From Mycolicibacterium confluentis (GTDB lineage Bacteria; Actinomycetota; Actinomycetes; Mycobacteriales; Mycobacteriaceae), in NCBI RefSeq assembly GCF_010729895.1, contig NZ_AP022612.1, positions 1,302,001 through 1,366,000 on the forward strand: 64,000 bases of DNA, given 5' to 3'. Under the pieces are notes generated by a model that saw nothing but the letters and a program-made list of their open reading frames with translations, did no database searches and had not been told where the DNA came from. The translations under genes and the position numbers were made by a program. Position 1 is the stretch's first letter, and the number at the start of each line of letters is the position of its first letter. Positions 617-43,097 of the stretch are shown here, piece by piece.

Positions 617-3600
617 GTGACGATTTTCGAGCACGACAACGTATCTGCCGAATACGACGGTTCAACCAACCACGATGGCAGCGCTGCCGGGCCCGCACAG
701 TCGACTCACGCCCTGGTCGATCGACTCTCCGCCGGCGAGCCCTTCGCCGTCGCCTTCGGGGGACAGGGCAGCGCCTGGCTGGAGACGCTCGAGGAGCTGG
801 TCTCCTCGGCAGGCATCGAGTCCGATCTCGCCACCCTGGCCGGTGAGGCCGAGCTGCTGCTCGAGCCCGTCGCCCGTGAACTCGTCGTGGTTCGCCCGAT
901 CGGCTTCGAGCCGCTGCGCTGGGTGCGCGCGCTGGCAGCCGAAGAGCCCGTGCCGACCGACAAGCAACTGACCTCCGCCGCCGTCTCCGTGCCCGGCGTG
1001 CTGCTGACCCAGATCGGTGCCGTGCGGGCGCTGGCCCGTCAGGGCCTGGATCTGGCCGCCACTCGCCCGGTCGCCGTCGCGGGTCACTCGCAGGGCGTGC
1101 TGGGCGTCGAGGCCCTCAACGCCGGCGGAGCTAAGGACGTGGAGCTGTTGGCGCTCGCGCAGCTGATCGGCGCCGCAGGCACCCTGGTGGCCCGTCGCCG
1201 CGGCATCGCGGTGCTCGGCGACCGCCCGCCGATGGTCTCGGTCACCAACGCCGACCCCGAGCGCATCTACGAACTGCTCGAGGAGTTCAGCCAGGACGTC
1301 CGGACGGTGCTGCCGCCCGTGCTGTCGATCCGCAACGGCCGCCGTTCCGTGGTCATCACCGGCACCCCCGAGCAGCTGTCCCGCTTCGAGCTCTACTGCC
1401 AGCAGATCGCGCAGAAGGAAGAGGCCGAGCGGAAGAGCAAGATCCGCGGCGGCGCCGTCTTCGCGCCGGTGTTCGACCCCGTGCAGGTCGAGGTCGGCTT
1501 CCACACCCCGCGTCTGTCCGACGGCGTCGACATCGTCGGCGGCTGGGCTGAGCAGGTCGGCATCGACGTCGAACTGGCCAAGGCGATGACCAAGGCCATC
1601 CTGATCGACCAGGTCGACTGGGTCGACGAGATCACCGCGCTGCACGAGGCCGGCGCCCGCTGGATCCTGGATCTGGGCCCCGGCGACATCCTGACCCGCC
1701 TCACCGCGCCGGTGATCCGGGGCCTCGGCATCGGCATCGTGCCCGCCGCCACGCGCGGCGGTCAGCGCAACCTGTTCACCGTCGGCGCCGTGCCCGAGGT
1801 GGCCAAGCCGTGGTCGAGCTACGCCCCCCAGGTCGTCACGCTGCCCGACGGTTCGGTGAAGCTGTCGACCAAGTTCACCCGCCTGACCGGTCGCTCGCCG
1901 ATCCTGCTCGCCGGGATGACCCCGACGACGGTCGACGCCAAGATCGTGGCGGCCGCGGCCAACGCGGGACACTGGGCCGAACTCGCAGGCGGCGGCCAGG
2001 TCACCGAGGAGATCTTCGCCGGCCGCGTCGAGGAGCTCACGACGCTGCTCGAACCGGGTCGCTCCATCCAGTTCAATTCGCTGTTCCTCGATCCGTACCT
2101 GTGGAAGCTGCAGGTCGGCGGTAAGCGCCTGGTGCAGAAGGCGCGCCAGTCCGGCGCCCCGATCGACGGCCTGATCGTCACGGCGGGCATCCCCGAACTC
2201 GAAGAGGCCGTCGAACTGATCGGCGAACTCAACGACGTCGGCATCAGCCACGTGGTGTTCAAGCCCGGCACCGTCGAGCAGATCCGCTCCGTCATCCGGA
2301 TCGCCAACGAGGTGCCCACCAAGCCCGTGATCGCCCACATCGAGGGCGGCCGCGCCGGCGGGCACCACTCCTGGGAGGATCTCGACGACCTGCTGCTGGC
2401 CACCTATTCGGAACTGCGTGGCCGCTCCAACATCACGGTCTGCGTCGGTGGCGGCATCGGCACGCCAGAGCGCGCCGCCGAATACCTGTCCGGCCGCTGG
2501 GCGCAGGCCTACGGCTACCCGCTGATGCCGGTCGACGGCATCCTGGTCGGCACCGCTGCCATGGCGACCCTCGAGGCCACCACCAGCCCGCAGGTCAAGC
2601 AGATGCTGGTCGAGACCAAGGGCACGGACACCTGGGTCGGCGCCGGGAAGGCGCAGGGCGGCATGGCTTCCGGCCGTAGCCAGCTCGGTGCGGACATCCA
2701 CGAGATCGACAACACGGCCTCGCGCTGCGGTCGACTGCTCGACGAGGTGGCCGGTGACGCCGACGCCGTCGCCCAGCGCCGCGACGAGATCATCGCCGCG
2801 ATGGCCAACACCGCCAAGCCGTACTTCGGCGACGTCGCCGAGATGACCTACGAGCAGTGGCTGAACCGCTACGTCGAACTGGCGATCGGTGACAACGATT
2901 CGACCGCCGACACCAGGCGCGAGGACTCGCCGTGGCTCGACGTCACGTGGCGGGACCGCTTCGCCGAGATGCTGCAGCGTGCCGAGGCCCGGCTCAACGC
3001 CGTCGACTCCGGTCCGATCGAAACCCTCTACGGCGCAACCGAACAGGGTGAGCGGCTGCTGGAGGACCCGCAGGCCGCGATCGCCGCGCTACTGGCCGCA
3101 TACCCCGACGCCGCGACCGTCAAGCTGCACCCGGCCGACGTGCCGTTCTTCGTCCAGCTGTGCAAGACGCTGGGCAAGCCGGTGAACTTCGTCCCGGTCA
3201 TCGACAAGGATGTCCGCCGGTGGTGGCGCAGCGACTCGCTGTGGCAGGCCCACGACGCGCGCTACTCCGCCGACCAGGTCTGCATCATCCCCGGCACGCA
3301 GGCCGTCGCGGGCATCACGCGGGTCGATGAACCGGTCGGTGAACTGCTCGACCGTTTCGAGCAGGCCGCGATCGACGAGGCCGTGGCCGCCGGAGCGCAG
3401 CCCAAGCCGGTGATCTCGCGTCTGCAGAACGTCACCAGCCCGCTGGCGCTGGTCCTCGACGCCCCCGACGTGCTGTGGGCCGGCCGCATCGCGACCAACC
3501 CGGTGCACCGCATCGCTGCCCCGTCCGAATGGCTTGTGCACGAGAACAAGTCCGCGACCAACCACGCCACCGGCGCTCGCCTGGAGATCGTCGGCGAGAA

Positions 3601-38977: not shown

Positions 38978-40423
38978 ATGGGCACCGGGCTGACAGCCGA
39001 CACCGTCGCGTCGGTACGACGGGCCCAACCCAGCGCCAACGTGATCATCGCACTGCTGGTCTCCTCGGCATTCGTCATGATCCTCAACGAGACGATCATG
39101 AGCGTCGCGCTGCCCGCCCTGATCGTCGACTTGAACACTTCCGCGAGCACCGCGCAGTGGCTCACCAGCGGCTACATGTTGACCATGGCCGTGGTCATTC
39201 CCATGTCCGGCTCACTGCTGCAACGCTTTTCGGCCCGATCCGTCTTCCTGGGAGCGATGTCGGCGTTCTGCGCTGGCACCCTGATCGCGGCGCTGGCACC
39301 GGGTTTCGCGGTGCTGCTGGCGGGACGGATCGTGCAGGCGTGCGGCACCGCGGTGATGATTCCGCTGCTGATAACGACCGTGATGAAGTTGATCCCCGCG
39401 CATCGGCGCGGGCAGATGATGGGGACCATCTCGATCGTCATCGCGGTGGCCCCGGCGGTGGGGCCGACGCTGTCCGGATTCATCCTGGGCTCACTCGACT
39501 GGCGATGGACGTTCTGGACCGTACTGCCCATCGCGTTGGCGGCCCTGGCCGCAGGCGTGGTGTGGCTGTGGGTCGACGACGAACAGGAGGAGCCGACGCC
39601 CATCGACGCGGTGTCGGTGCCGCTGTCGGCGATCGCGTTCGCCGGCCTGGTGCTGGGGCTGTCCCTTTTCGGCGAGTCCGGCCACGGTGGGCAGATGATT
39701 CCCGCGTGGGTGCCGATGGTGATCGGCGCGGTCGCCATGGTGGCCTTCGGGGTGCGGCAGGTGCGCCTGCAGCGGCAGGATCGCGCGCTCCTCGATCTGC
39801 GGCCGTTCACCCACCGACGGTTCTCGGTGTCGCTGGGCCTCGTGGTCCTCGGCTGCGTGGGGCTGTTCGGCGCGATCATCATGGTGCCGCTGTACGTCCA
39901 GGATGTTCTGGACAAGAGCGCGTTGGTGGCCGGGTTGGCGACGCTGCCGGGCGGCGTGCTGATGGGGATCGCGGGCCCGCTGGTCGGGCGGGTCTACGAC
40001 CGTCGCGGCGCGCGGGTGCTCGTGGTGCCGGGATCAATGCTCCTGTGCGCGTCGCTGTGGGGGTTGACGCTGCTGACCGCGTCGTCGCCGATCTGGCAAC
40101 TCGTGGTCCTGCAGTCGATCATGATGGTCGGCCTTGCGCTGATTTTCACCCCGTTGCTGACCGACGCGCTCGCCGTCCTGCCGGACCGGTTGTACTCCCA
40201 CGGCAGCGCCATCCTGACGACGCTCCAGCAGGTCGGGGGAGCGGCGGGCATTGCGCTGCTCGTGACGGTGATGACCAACGCATCGCACTCGGGCGGTGCG
40301 CCGGACATGCCCGGCATCCATACGGCCTTCCTGGTCGCTGCGATGATCAGCGTGGTTGCGGTGTTCGCGGCGTTCTTCACGGCGTCGGAGCCGAGTCCTG
40401 CGGGTGGGACGCCGACGCACTGA
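38978..40423 (+). CDS. DHA2-type multidrug efflux MFS transporter
   Basis: 481 residues with 14 predicted membrane segments. The early motif NETIMSVALPALIVDL (drug:H+ antiporter signature) and QWLTSGYMLTMAVVIPMSG, plus RIVQACGTAVMIPLL and AVGPTLSGFILGSLDWRWTFW (motif C) are typical of EmrB/QacA exporters. ATG 38978 has GAGGAG 7 nt before it; a GTG at 38972 is also in frame. Substrate unknown. It lies divergent from the TspO-like gene. Confidence 0.88.
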   Translation: MGTGLTADTVASVRRAQPSANVIIALLVSSAFVMILNETIMSVALPALIVDLNTSASTAQWLTSGYMLTMAVVIPMSGSLLQRFSARSVFLGAMSAFCAGTLIAALAPGFAVLLAGRIVQACGTAVMIPLLITTVMKLIPAHRRGQMMGTISIVIAVAPAVGPTLSGFILGSLDWRWTFWTVLPIALAALAAGVVWLWVDDEQEEPTPIDAVSVPLSAIAFAGLVLGLSLFGESGHGGQMIPAWVPMVIGAVAMVAFGVRQVRLQRQDRALLDLRPFTHRRFSVSLGLVVLGCVGLFGAIIMVPLYVQDVLDKSALVAGLATLPGGVLMGIAGPLVGRVYDRRGARVLVVPGSMLLCASLWGLTLLTASSPIWQLVVLQSIMMVGLALIFTPLLTDALAVLPDRLYSHGSAILTTLQQVGGAAGIALLVTVMTNASHSGGAPDMPGIHTAFLVAAMISVVAVFAAFFTASEPSPAGGTPTH

Positions 40424-40462
40424 GGGCGGGCCTTCCCGGCAGATTTGCGTGATGGGACGTCG

Positions 40463-40540
40463 CTAAGTGAAGTCAACTCCGCCCTTTAACTTCACTTAGT
40501 GCGCTAAGTGAAGTTAAAATGGGCCGGTGACTTCACTTAG
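40463..40540 (+). promoter_or_regulatory. Four-half-site operator overlapping the fic promoter and start
   Basis: The 11-mer CTAAGTGAAGT occurs at 40463-40473 and 40504-40514, and its exact reverse complement at 40489-40499 and 40530-40540. Like copies are 41 bases apart, and each forward-reverse pair encloses a 15-base spacer. The middle two extend to a perfect 15-bp inverted repeat (40485-40499 with 40504-40518) with a 4-base spacer. The -10 box TAAAAT (40515-40520) lies inside it, 6 nt before the fic GTG, and the last half-site is within the first fic codons. This looks like tight autoregulation of a leaderless gene. Confidence 0.75.
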
Positions 40541-41699
40541 CCCTGTCTCCTACGAGAACGTTCGTTGGGAGCCTCAGGGCAGGCGGCACGCGGGCCAAAC
40601 GCTGCCCAAGTACGGCACCTATCACCCGGCCGTGCCAGCAGGCATCACGGACTTGACCCTGGATCTGCCTCCCGCGGTATGGGCGGAAGCTGAGTCCGCC
40701 AGTCGTGAGATCGCTCGATTCGACGCCGAACTCGGCGGCGAGATTGCACCGTTTGCTGCCGTGTTGCTCCGATCGGAGTCGGCCGCGAGTTCGCAGATTG
40801 AAAATTTGACGGCATCGGCGCGCGCGATCGGCGAGGCTGAGTTGCCCGGCGGCAAGGCCAAGCGCAACGCGCAAATCATCGTTGCCAATACCGCTGCGAT
40901 GCAGGCCGCACTCGCTCTGTCCGACGTCGTGGACGCTGACGCCGTCCGAGCGATGCACAGCGCGTTGATGATCAACGATCCGAGACACACGCCCGGCGAA
41001 TTCCGTACGGAACCGGTGTGGATCGGCGGTGGGGCGACTCCGATCGGTGCGACGTTTGTCGGTCCGCGCCACGAGTTGATCCCTGCGGCGATTGATGACC
41101 TGATCGCCTTCGCGCAGCGGGACGATGTCCCCGCGTTGCCGCAGATTGCGGTGAGTCATGCACAGTTCGAGACGATCCACCCCTTCACCGACGGAAATGG
41201 CCGCACGGGCCGCGCATTGGCACAAGCCATGCTGCGCAACAAGGGTTTGACGCGTCAGGTGACGGTGCCCGTCTCGGCTGGGTTGCTTGCCGACGCCGGT
41301 GCGTACTTCGACGCATTGACGAACTATCGCGAAGGTGATGCCGCGCCGATTGTCGAGCGCTTCTCGCAGGCCGCGATGCTGGCGATCGCCAATGGTCGGC
41401 GACTGGTCACCGAGATCCGCGATATCCGCGGCGCCTGGAAGGGCGTCATCACCGCGCGTTCCGATTCGGCGGTGTGGAAGGTGGCCGATTTGTTGACCCG
41501 CCGCCCAGTGGTGAACGCTGCGCTCGTGGCGCAGGAGTTGGGCATCGAATCCACCAATGCTCACCGCTATCTCAACCCGCTTACCGAGGCGGGAATCCTC
41601 GTCGAGACAACCAATGGGCCACGCAACCGGGTGTGGCGTTCACCGGAAGTCCTCGCGGCGATTGACGCTTTTGCGGAACGTGCCGGGCGCCGAGGCTGA
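40527..41699 (+). CDS. Fic family protein adenylyltransferase with C-terminal winged helix
   Basis: 390 residues. The central Fic core carries HPFTDGNGRTGR with catalytic His218, which transfers AMP to protein hydroxyls. An N-terminal inhibitory helix is present: SSQIEN, with Ser88 and Glu92, fits the [S/T]xxxE[G/N] rule of self-inhibited class II Fic proteins. The last 75 residues (VWKVADLLTRRPVVNAALVAQELGIESTNAHRYLNPL) form a helix-turn-helix/winged-helix domain, which could bind the operator array at its own promoter. Base composition is less G+C rich than neighbours, suggesting transfer. Target protein unknown; no antitoxin gene is adjacent. Confidence 0.92.
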   Translation: MTSLSPVSYENVRWEPQGRRHAGQTLPKYGTYHPAVPAGITDLTLDLPPAVWAEAESASREIARFDAELGGEIAPFAAVLLRSESAASSQIENLTASARAIGEAELPGGKAKRNAQIIVANTAAMQAALALSDVVDADAVRAMHSALMINDPRHTPGEFRTEPVWIGGGATPIGATFVGPRHELIPAAIDDLIAFAQRDDVPALPQIAVSHAQFETIHPFTDGNGRTGRALAQAMLRNKGLTRQVTVPVSAGLLADAGAYFDALTNYREGDAAPIVERFSQAAMLAIANGRRLVTEIRDIRGAWKGVITARSDSAVWKVADLLTRRPVVNAALVAQELGIESTNAHRYLNPLTEAGILVETTNGPRNRVWRSPEVLAAIDAFAERAGRRG

Positions 41700-41745: not shown

Positions 41746-42573
41746 TCAGGCCTTCGGCGCGGTCACTTTCCAGAAGTCCGTCACCAGTTGCAGGATGCGT
41801 GCACGGTCGACCAGCAGTGGCGAGACGTGGCCCGTGCCGGCGACCTCTTCGACGCGACAGTCGGCGATGGCAACACAGGTGCGGCGGGCTTCGTCGGGCC
41901 GCCACCCTGTCACGTCATCGCGCACGGGCATCATCAGCGTGGGCACCTTGATTTCGGCGAGCAGGTTCTCGACACCCGAGCGCATCAGCATCATCGAGCG
42001 CATCGCGTGGTTCATTCCGCGGCGGTCGGCGTCCCGAAACGACGCCACCACCGCAGCAGCCTGCTCTGGTTGTGCGGCAAGGGAATCCGGGCCGACCAGC
42101 GAGTCGAACAGCAGCTTCACGAGGATGTCGGTCGGGCCGGTGAGCCGGTGCAGGCCGACCAGCGGCCCAATCTTGAGCTTCTCGCCGAAAGTCAGTCCCT
42201 GAACCGGGGTGCCGATGGTGGTCAACGTCCGCAACCGCGATCCCGCCGCCAATCGGATACCGACGTGCCCACCCCAGGCGTTGCCGACCCAGTCCACCGG
42301 GTCGGTGAGGCCCAGGCGGTCCAACGCCTGGAGCGCACTACCCGCCACCTCGTCGAAGCTGAAGTCGCGCGGCACCGGGTCGCTTCTGCCGTGTGAGGGT
42401 CCGTCGATGGCGTACACGGTGCGGTGTCGCGCCAAGTCGTCGATCAGGGAACCCCAGGATCGTGAGTCGACGAACAGGCTGTGCCACAACACGGCCGGGG
42501 GGCCGGTGCCAGTGCGTTGCACATGGAGGCGACCGAGGTCGGTGCGGACGAACTCGGAGTGGGGCGCGCCCAT
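41746..42573 (-). CDS. Alpha/beta hydrolase-fold protein lacking the nucleophile serine
   Basis: 275 residues. The fold is clear: VLWHSLFVDSRSW (oxyanion region), YAIDGPSHGRSD, VGNAWGGHVG (nucleophile elbow), MMPVRDDVTG (acid) and GTGHVSPL (catalytic His). The elbow residue normally Ser, Asp or Cys is Ala99 here (codon GCC), so it may be inactive as a classic hydrolase or do non-covalent chemistry. GGAGG lies 5 nt before ATG 42573. It is divergent from a MarR gene across 59 bases that contain two palindromes, so the MarR protein probably controls it. Confidence 0.85.
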   Translation of the reverse strand: MGAPHSEFVRTDLGRLHVQRTGTGPPAVLWHSLFVDSRSWGSLIDDLARHRTVYAIDGPSHGRSDPVPRDFSFDEVAGSALQALDRLGLTDPVDWVGNAWGGHVGIRLAAGSRLRTLTTIGTPVQGLTFGEKLKIGPLVGLHRLTGPTDILVKLLFDSLVGPDSLAAQPEQAAAVVASFRDADRRGMNHAMRSMMLMRSGVENLLAEIKVPTLMMPVRDDVTGWRPDEARRTCVAIADCRVEEVAGTGHVSPLLVDRARILQLVTDFWKVTAPKA

Positions 42574-42588
42574 CACAACCTCCAATTG

Positions 42589-42609
42589 TTTCGGAATCCG
42601 AAATTTCGG
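42589..42609. promoter_or_regulatory. Overlapping palindromes, probable MarR operator
   Basis: TTTCGG-AAT-CCGAAA (42589-42603) and the perfect 12-mer CCGAAATTTCGG (42598-42609) share the CCGAAA half-site. They lie between the divergent hydrolase and MarR starts, a classic location for MarR autoregulation. Confidence 0.55.
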
Positions 42610-42632
42610 TAACCGTAGTATTCTCGTATGCC

Positions 42633-43097
42633 GTGACTTCGTCAAGAGGCCTGCCGCAGGACCGGCAGGCGGTCGGGCAGCTTCTTGTGAGGTTGTTGCG
42701 CGAGTTTCGCCAGGACCTCGGTGCCGAGCGGGAGTGCGCGGGGTTCGGAGATGTCCGGGAACCGCATTTCCAGCTCTTCGGCAATATCCGCATGGGCGGA
42801 GTCCGGCTGACCGAGTTGGCCGACCGCGCACAGTTGAGCCTTGCCGCAACCTCTGAACTGGTCAACGACCTGGTCGACCTCGGCTACCTCGTCCGTCGTC
42901 CGGACCCGGCGGACGGAAGAGCGAAGCTGATCGACCTGACCGAGCGCGGCCGGGATCTGATGGGGATGGCCGGCGCCAAGGTGGCCGACATCGAGCAGCG
43001 GTGGTCGACGCTGGCGGGGGAGGCGGACTTCGCGCAGATGTGCGCCACTATGCAGCGCCTGTTGGACGGGCTGAATCCGGACGATTCGCGGGGCTGA
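42633..43097 (+). CDS. MarR family transcriptional regulator
   Basis: 154 residues with the winged-helix core GGVRLTELADRAQLSLAATSELVNDLVDLGYLVRRPDPADGRAKLIDLTERG. The start is inferred as GTG 42633: an upstream frame exists to 42393, but it overlaps the divergent hydrolase, and TATTCT at 42619-42624 is placed 8 nt before this GTG, suggesting a leaderless message. The likely target is the adjacent alpha/beta hydrolase gene and itself. Confidence 0.83.
   Translation: MTSSRGLPQDRQAVGQLLVRLLREFRQDLGAERECAGFGDVREPHFQLFGNIRMGGVRLTELADRAQLSLAATSELVNDLVDLGYLVRRPDPADGRAKLIDLTERGRDLMGMAGAKVADIEQRWSTLAGEADFAQMCATMQRLLDGLNPDDSRG

Follow-up and report, generated by a model that had tools for sequence, protein, structure and literature searches.

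The fic Gene and Its Protein

The window, which here means the whole stretch of 64,000 nucleotides that was analyzed, contains a fic gene at positions 40527..41699 of the forward strand. An array of repeats fills the gap between an MFS gene and fic, and the next long frame downstream of fic lies on the opposite strand. The fic gene encodes 390 amino acid residues, which probably constitute a class II Fic protein and AMP transferase, as judged from its motifs. The codons of the Fic motif, HPFTDGNGRTGR, are located at 41178..41213 on the forward strand; the motif fits HPFx(D/E)GN(G/K)RxxR, a consensus followed in 114 of the 115 related loci described below, and the protein scores 66.5 bits against PF02661, for which the cut-off is 24. 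The residues S88-SQI-E92-N93, encoded at 40788..40805 on the same strand and located N-terminal to the Fic core, fit the (S/T)xxxE(G/N) inhibitory motif of class II Fic proteins. Serine or threonine at residue 88 and glutamate at residue 92 are found in 115/115 loci, and asparagine or glycine follows at residue 93 in 97 of them.

The protein aligns over nearly its whole length with SoFic of Shewanella oneidensis (PDB 3eqx, 3zcn), to which it is 17–18% identical; the score against the SoFic equivalog model NF046030 is 60.3 bits, below the cut-off of 550. The M. marinum (Mycobacterium marinum) Fic structure, PDB 7cb8, represents a protein that is less closely related than the orthologues of the present comparison.

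The winged helix proposed for the C-terminus in the original prediction is supported by the AlphaFold2 model, in which residues 316–385 (codons 41472..41681, forward strand) have a mean pLDDT of 87. The modelled helix-turn-helix consists of helices at residues 316–323 and 331–338, a putative recognition helix at residues 342–354, and a strand at residues 369–371. The codons of the recognition helix, which is delimited by the model and by the covariation described below, are located at 41550..41588 on the forward strand, with those of R347 at 41565–41567. The Pfam search gave no helix-turn-helix and listed only Fic (PF02661) and Fic_N, the latter below its cut-off.

Half-Site Array and Predicted Promoter

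The array consists of four exact copies of the 11-mer CTAAGTGAAGT, which are referred to as half-sites 1 to 4. Half-sites 1 (40463..40473) and 3 (40504..40514) are on the forward strand, and half-sites 2 (40489..40499) and 4 (40530..40540) are on the reverse strand, with gaps of 15, 4, and 15 bp between them, so that copies of the same orientation are 41 bases apart in both cases. The inner pair extends into a perfect dyad at 40485..40518, as read from the sequence, where arms of 15 bp (40485–40499 and 40504–40518) are separated by 4 bases; the entire 38-nt arms of the array are 84% complementary. No match was obtained in 100 dinucleotide shuffles of the window, and the exact 11-mer occurs four times in the genome of 5,876,557 bases, each time in this array. 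The four exact half-sites with their 41-base phasing, and the perfect 15-bp inverted repeat of the inner pair, thus stand as originally described. When one mismatch was allowed, 9 more scattered sites were found genome-wide, compared to 32 for the reversed control pattern, which indicates that the word is not common elsewhere in the genome. A scan of viral contigs with a 14-mer matched at least 120 stretches, with one match each among those listed, and was uninformative at this length.

The promoter scan of positions 40300–40700 gave a single sigma-70-like promoter, TTCACT (40491–40496) and TAAAAT (40515..40520, forward strand) separated by 18 bases, where shuffled sequence gave a mean of 0.1. 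The −35-like hexamer is located inside half-site 2, and half-site 3 abuts the −10 box. The −10 box ends 6 nt before the GTG start codon at 40527..40529 on the forward strand; therefore, half-site 4 falls within codons 2–5 of fic. This agrees with the prediction that the −10 box lies in the array and the last copy in the coding start. From the spacing to the −10 box, the GTG is also the predicted transcription start. A frame of four codons, ATG GGC CGG TGA, overlaps the start codon at 40519–40530; it is probably meaningless because it precedes the predicted transcription start and is missing in most of the orthologues inspected.

The spacing between the −10 box and the start codon was compared among 196 fic loci including that of the window; 80 of them came from named contigs and were the top-ranking entries of a longer list. 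Removal of 12 repeats left 184 distinct loci. A TAnnnT box is present 4–9 nt before a candidate start in 126 of the 184, at 6 nt before ATG or GTG in 115 and at each of the other spacings in 1–6 loci; 58 loci are without such a box and 11 have it at another spacing only. With the repeats kept, 133 of the 196 loci have the box and 121 have it at 6 nt. In mycobacteria, an ATG or GTG at the 5′ end of the transcript is reported to be enough for translation (PMC4633059). The layout and its conservation suggest that the fic promoter is probably leaderless, as originally claimed, where the 5′ end of the transcript is that predicted from the 6-nt spacing in 115/184 loci.

The overlap of half-site 4 with the coding start is reflected in codon usage. 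The 27 close orthologues compared have ACT as codon 2 in 22 cases, TCA as codon 3 in 25, and CTT as codon 4 in all 27; elsewhere in these genes, ACT, TCA, and CTT are chosen among their synonyms at frequencies of 6.8%, 10.6%, and 5.4%, respectively. This indicates that half-site 4 places rare codons in the start of fic and that the DNA word is kept in addition to the protein.

Conservation of the Layout in Related Loci

A survey of the genus (198 genomes) gave homologues of fic in 65 at an E value of 1e-40 or better, and in 49 of 298 genomes of an order sample and 51 of 394 genomes of a class sample at 1e-60, where the samples share genomes. In the close orthologues (at least 78% identity), CTAAGTGAAGT recurs in the same places with some changes; L039 and L053, two close relatives in Mycobacterium records, are both 85% identical to the fic of the window. 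In orthologues of 59–67% identity, the exact 11-mer is gone and the layout recurs with other words. One example combines TAGCGACACTTA...TAAGTGTCGCTA with a start-proximal ATGGCGACACTT; in another, TAGCATCACTTA...TAAGTGATGCTA is accompanied by GTGGCATCA. The original prediction proposed to look for the same 11-mer before fic genes of related genomes, an expectation which holds in the close orthologues and fails in the more distant ones. Its proposal to count missing repeats as evidence against the idea is too strict, because the same architecture is found there with a different word.

The register of the half-sites was scored with half-site 3 set at −23 to −13 relative to the start, and inverted and direct partners were evaluated over the surrounding 60–100 bases. 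In the 121 loci with the 6-nt spacing (6 repeats among them), the best inverted partners were at sums of −51 (0.657) and −10 (0.635), and the best direct partner among the offsets tested was at −41 (0.467), the offset of half-site 1 from half-site 3, against a median of 0.24. The same top three were obtained for 23 representatives with less than 60% protein identity (inverted −51, 0.589, and −10, 0.498; direct −41, 0.506), where the background is approximately 0.25 with a standard deviation of approximately 0.05. The best partner positions in the related loci are those of the array in the window.

Among the 115 distinct loci, at least 7 of 11 bases match between half-sites 2 and 3 in 82, between 3 and 4 in 71, and between 1 and 3 in 43; at least one such match among half-sites 2–4 is present in 93 loci and lacking in 22. 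The corresponding numbers for the 23 representatives are 14, 7, and 7. In a control where half-sites were swapped between loci, matches of at least 7 of 11 bases were reached in 6.7%, 2.8%, and 4.0% of cases for the three pairs, respectively.

These results bear on the possibility that the inverted repeat acts as RNA, either by terminating the transcript of the upstream MFS gene or as another hairpin. The inner dyad, with 15-bp arms and 4 bases between them, would suit an RNA hairpin, and paired changes would be compatible with RNA as well. However, the terminator scan found no terminator-like site in 40300–40700, the register is locked to the −10 box and start codon of fic, and half-sites 1 and 4 carry the same word even though they lie outside the inner hairpin. 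Nor is the MFS gene a conserved upstream neighbor of fic. A role as RNA is thus considered highly improbable.

The remaining 69 of the 184 distinct loci are outside the 6-nt class; many have other palindromes by eye, and some, including L022, L041, and L240, deviate by one base in the spacing. Mycobacterial Fic paralogues (L309–L315, 35–38% identity) show by eye TAACTCGGACTA-type repeats, the last of which runs into an AGGAG before the start, a leadered-looking layout as if an operator overlapped the ribosome-binding site.

Covariation with the Recognition Helix

The distance between the half-site words of different loci was correlated with the distance in successive 14-residue stretches along the whole protein, with correction for how far the Fic cores had diverged (partial r). 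The scan along the protein was performed on the 82 of the 115 loci where half-sites 2 and 3 match at 7 of 11 bases or more. The best stretch was residues 341–354 (ESTNAHRYLNPLTE), with a partial r of 0.41 when the loci were thinned at 80% (34 loci) and 0.44 at 70% (27 loci); over all 82 loci, the best stretch was 347–360 with a partial r of 0.38. The whole recognition helix gave 0.25 for the 82 loci and 0.34 and 0.36 after thinning at 80% and 70%, and none of 5000 permutations was as high in each case. At 60% thinning, which leaves 15 loci, the value for the helix was 0.156, 356 of 5000 permutations were as high, and the stretch 101–114 was marginally first.

Mutual information (APC-corrected) was calculated for 390 × 12 residue–base pairs on the same loci thinned to 34. 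The top pair, by a narrow margin, was R347 with position 6 of the half-site (0.33); the following pairs, with I73 (0.32) and Q17 (0.31), are nearly tied and lie outside the winged helix. Residues 330–372 contribute 8 of the top 30 pairs, where 3.3 are expected, and 18 of the top 100, where approximately 11 are expected. In half-site 3 of the 115 loci, arginine at residue 347 is accompanied by G or T at position 6 in 82/93 cases, and another residue is accompanied by neither base in 21/22. The corresponding numbers for the 34 thinned loci are 22/22 and 12/12, and alanine at residue 344 is paired with a T at half-site position 7 in 10/14 thinned loci. Tree-independent contrasts for R347 never ran in the wrong direction, and on average 2.5–3.5 of 7 changed together, which is not significant. 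A scan of single columns, in which half-site 2 was placed one base off, mostly ranked columns outside the recognition helix first.

The overall tendency suggests that the putative operator word drifts with the recognition helix in each lineage, while the spacing, the −10 box, and the start codon stay fixed.

Association of the Dyad with fic and Neighboring Genes

Within the genus, the dyad was found with up to three mismatches in 29 of 198 genomes, compared to 5 for the reversed pattern, and in 26 of the 29 it adjoins fic or a remnant of fic. The other three genomes (G055, G093, and G150) have the dyad without a recognizable fic, and G053 has one extra dyad approximately 1.8 kb from a full-length fic. 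Conversely, 23 of the 25 full-length close fic copies listed (78–100% identity) have the dyad, and those of G162 and G184 are without it at that stringency. This indicates that the array sites are dedicated to the fic gene.

The genes around fic were compared in the flanks of 109 loci, 29 of the genus with flanks of up to 1.5 kb and 80 others with flanks of up to 3 kb. Homologues of the neighboring MFS, hydrolase-like, and MarR-type genes (E value of 1e-8 or better) were missing from these flanks, except for one MFS match of 31% (L118). An alternative reading is that a regulator encoded elsewhere binds the array and controls fic; the MarR-type protein encoded at 42393–43097, approximately 0.7 kb beyond fic, is such a candidate by its position. 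It was rejected as the regulator of the array because it is not conserved beside fic in these 109 loci, in common with the other two neighbors. More generally, a shared regulator should have other sites, but the exact 11-mer is unique to the array in the genome, and the changes in the word track the recognition helix of Fic, which argues against an outside regulator. Control by such a protein is therefore rated as improbable.

In the FicTA and VbhTA type II modules, inhibition is exerted by a small protein encoded apart from the enzyme. The fic locus of the window resembles these modules in that a Fic enzyme would be kept in check, and differs from them in that the Fic chain itself contains the inhibitory motif and that the three neighbors are not conserved. 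Among these neighbors and the long frames considered, no adjacent conserved antitoxin gene of the kind that defines a type II toxin-antitoxin system was found. The suggestion that the locus works without a separate antitoxin is consistent with the intramolecular motif and with the finding that the three neighbors include no conserved partner gene.

As the recognition helix covaries with the word, the sites are dedicated to fic, and the neighbors are not conserved, the winged helix of Fic itself is the best candidate for binding the array.

Proposed Autoregulation by Fic

The architecture, conservation, covariation, and dedication of the array are computed results. With high probability, they reflect an operator to which Fic would bind through its C-terminal winged helix and repress its own, probably leaderless promoter, making a one-gene autoregulatory unit. 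The spacing of half-sites 1–4 suggests that they could seat two dimers. Half-site 2 would cover the −35 region, half-site 3 abuts the −10 box, and half-site 4 would cover +4 to +14 of the predicted transcript. Because of these positions, Fic on the array would obstruct RNA polymerase, and the enzyme would be kept scarce. The original proposal that Fic is both enzyme and repressor is therefore retained in part: the operator-like architecture, the covariation, and the dedicated sites support a role of its own winged helix, and the binding and repression are expected from them.

Repression of its own gene by a Fic protein has a precedent in CccR of Yersinia pseudotuberculosis, a secreted effector with a Fic domain and a helix-turn-helix, which acts through palindromes near −35 and −10 as demonstrated by EMSA, footprinting, and a lacZ fusion (PMC9755527). 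The fic locus of the window shares with CccR the Fic domain, the C-terminal helix-turn-helix, and palindromes over its own promoter, here a predicted one with a presumed operator role. In the footprint of CccR, a pair of 10-bp repeats is separated by 26 bp, whereas the half-sites here number four, measure 11 bp each, and are spaced by 15, 4, and 15 bp; moreover, the promoter here is probably leaderless and the array reaches into the coding region. The geometry of CccR is thus not matched, yet this is not required for working like CccR. In the literature found, CccR is the only Fic protein whose own operator has been mapped.

The second related system is CbFic2 of Coxiella burnetii (PDB 8cil), a class II Fic protein with a winged helix that mediates DNA binding (PMC10628234); the Fic protein of the window is of the same make-up, and its DNA binding is predicted. 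For CbFic2, a change from an AMPylating monomer to a deAMPylating dimer on DNA was proposed in the same study, which offers a biochemical precedent for the link between AMPylation state and transcription suggested in the original prediction. Such a precedent, together with an inhibitory motif of the same type in the Fic protein of the window, points to a variant in which binding to the array is also, or mainly, a switch of the enzyme: the DNA-bound dimer would be a deAMPylase or inactive, and the free monomer would be an AMPylase. The operator would then be an allosteric ligand, and the expression level would set the activity. On the other side, the regulatory and toxic activities of CccR were reported to be independent (PMC9755527), and a single operator in the genome leaves room for just a few Fic molecules. 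This switch, which extends the self-repression described above and is compatible with it, is considered possible but rather unlikely.

Self-repression by a Fic protein with a helix-turn-helix is known from CccR; the locked leaderless layout of four half-sites running into the coding start, together with a word that drifts with its putative reader, looks new. Among the open-licence papers listed for Fic with promoter repeats, with leaderless genes, and with Actinobacteria and palindromes, none appears to describe actinobacterial Fic operators. Here, a signal taken from sequence alone picks out the putative operator, its promoter, and the helix that would read it together in more than 100 loci, nearly all of which are actinobacterial. 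The pairing of word and recognition helix is directly testable by swaps, and the array provides a handle on the question raised by CbFic2, whether specific DNA binding alters the activity of a Fic enzyme.

A broader reading, put forward tentatively and with low probability, is that actinobacterial Fic proteins with a winged helix form a large family of one-gene switches with operator-shaped first codons. Their operator words could diversify freely because each protein would serve essentially one site, its own, and would amount to a natural recognition code, in which R347 goes with G or T at position 6 of the half-site, other residues go mostly with C, and alanine at residue 344 goes with T at position 7. 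If DNA-bound Fic in this family were also catalytically different, the promoter would thereby read and reset the AMPylation capacity.

Additional Dyads and fic Remnants

In the locus L325 of G055 (2084–3560), there are five half-sites in register but no fic, and a transposase-like frame on the opposite strand, IS30-like by inspection, ends 8 bases beyond them; it looks as if an insertion element had left the operator behind or separated it from its gene. Lone dyads with similar flanks, not directly before fic, are found in L327 of G093 (2185–2210), where the dyad follows two short genes resembling a nucleotidyltransferase/HEPN pair by inspection, and in L329 of G053 (1597–1622). These two dyads may be relics, or the operator may have been put to another use there.

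The locus L018 has a second set of half-sites at 1329–1406, exactly 105 bases upstream of the array proper (1434–1511), including a copy like half-site 4 in an apparent copy of the fic start, as if the operator had been duplicated in tandem along with the gene start. A second dyad is also present approximately 75 bases further out in L331 (the L033 locus). Several genomes of the genus carry broken or truncated copies of fic (L330, L321, L322, and L328), and the array is still recognizable in L330; fic seems to have been gained and lost often in the genus.
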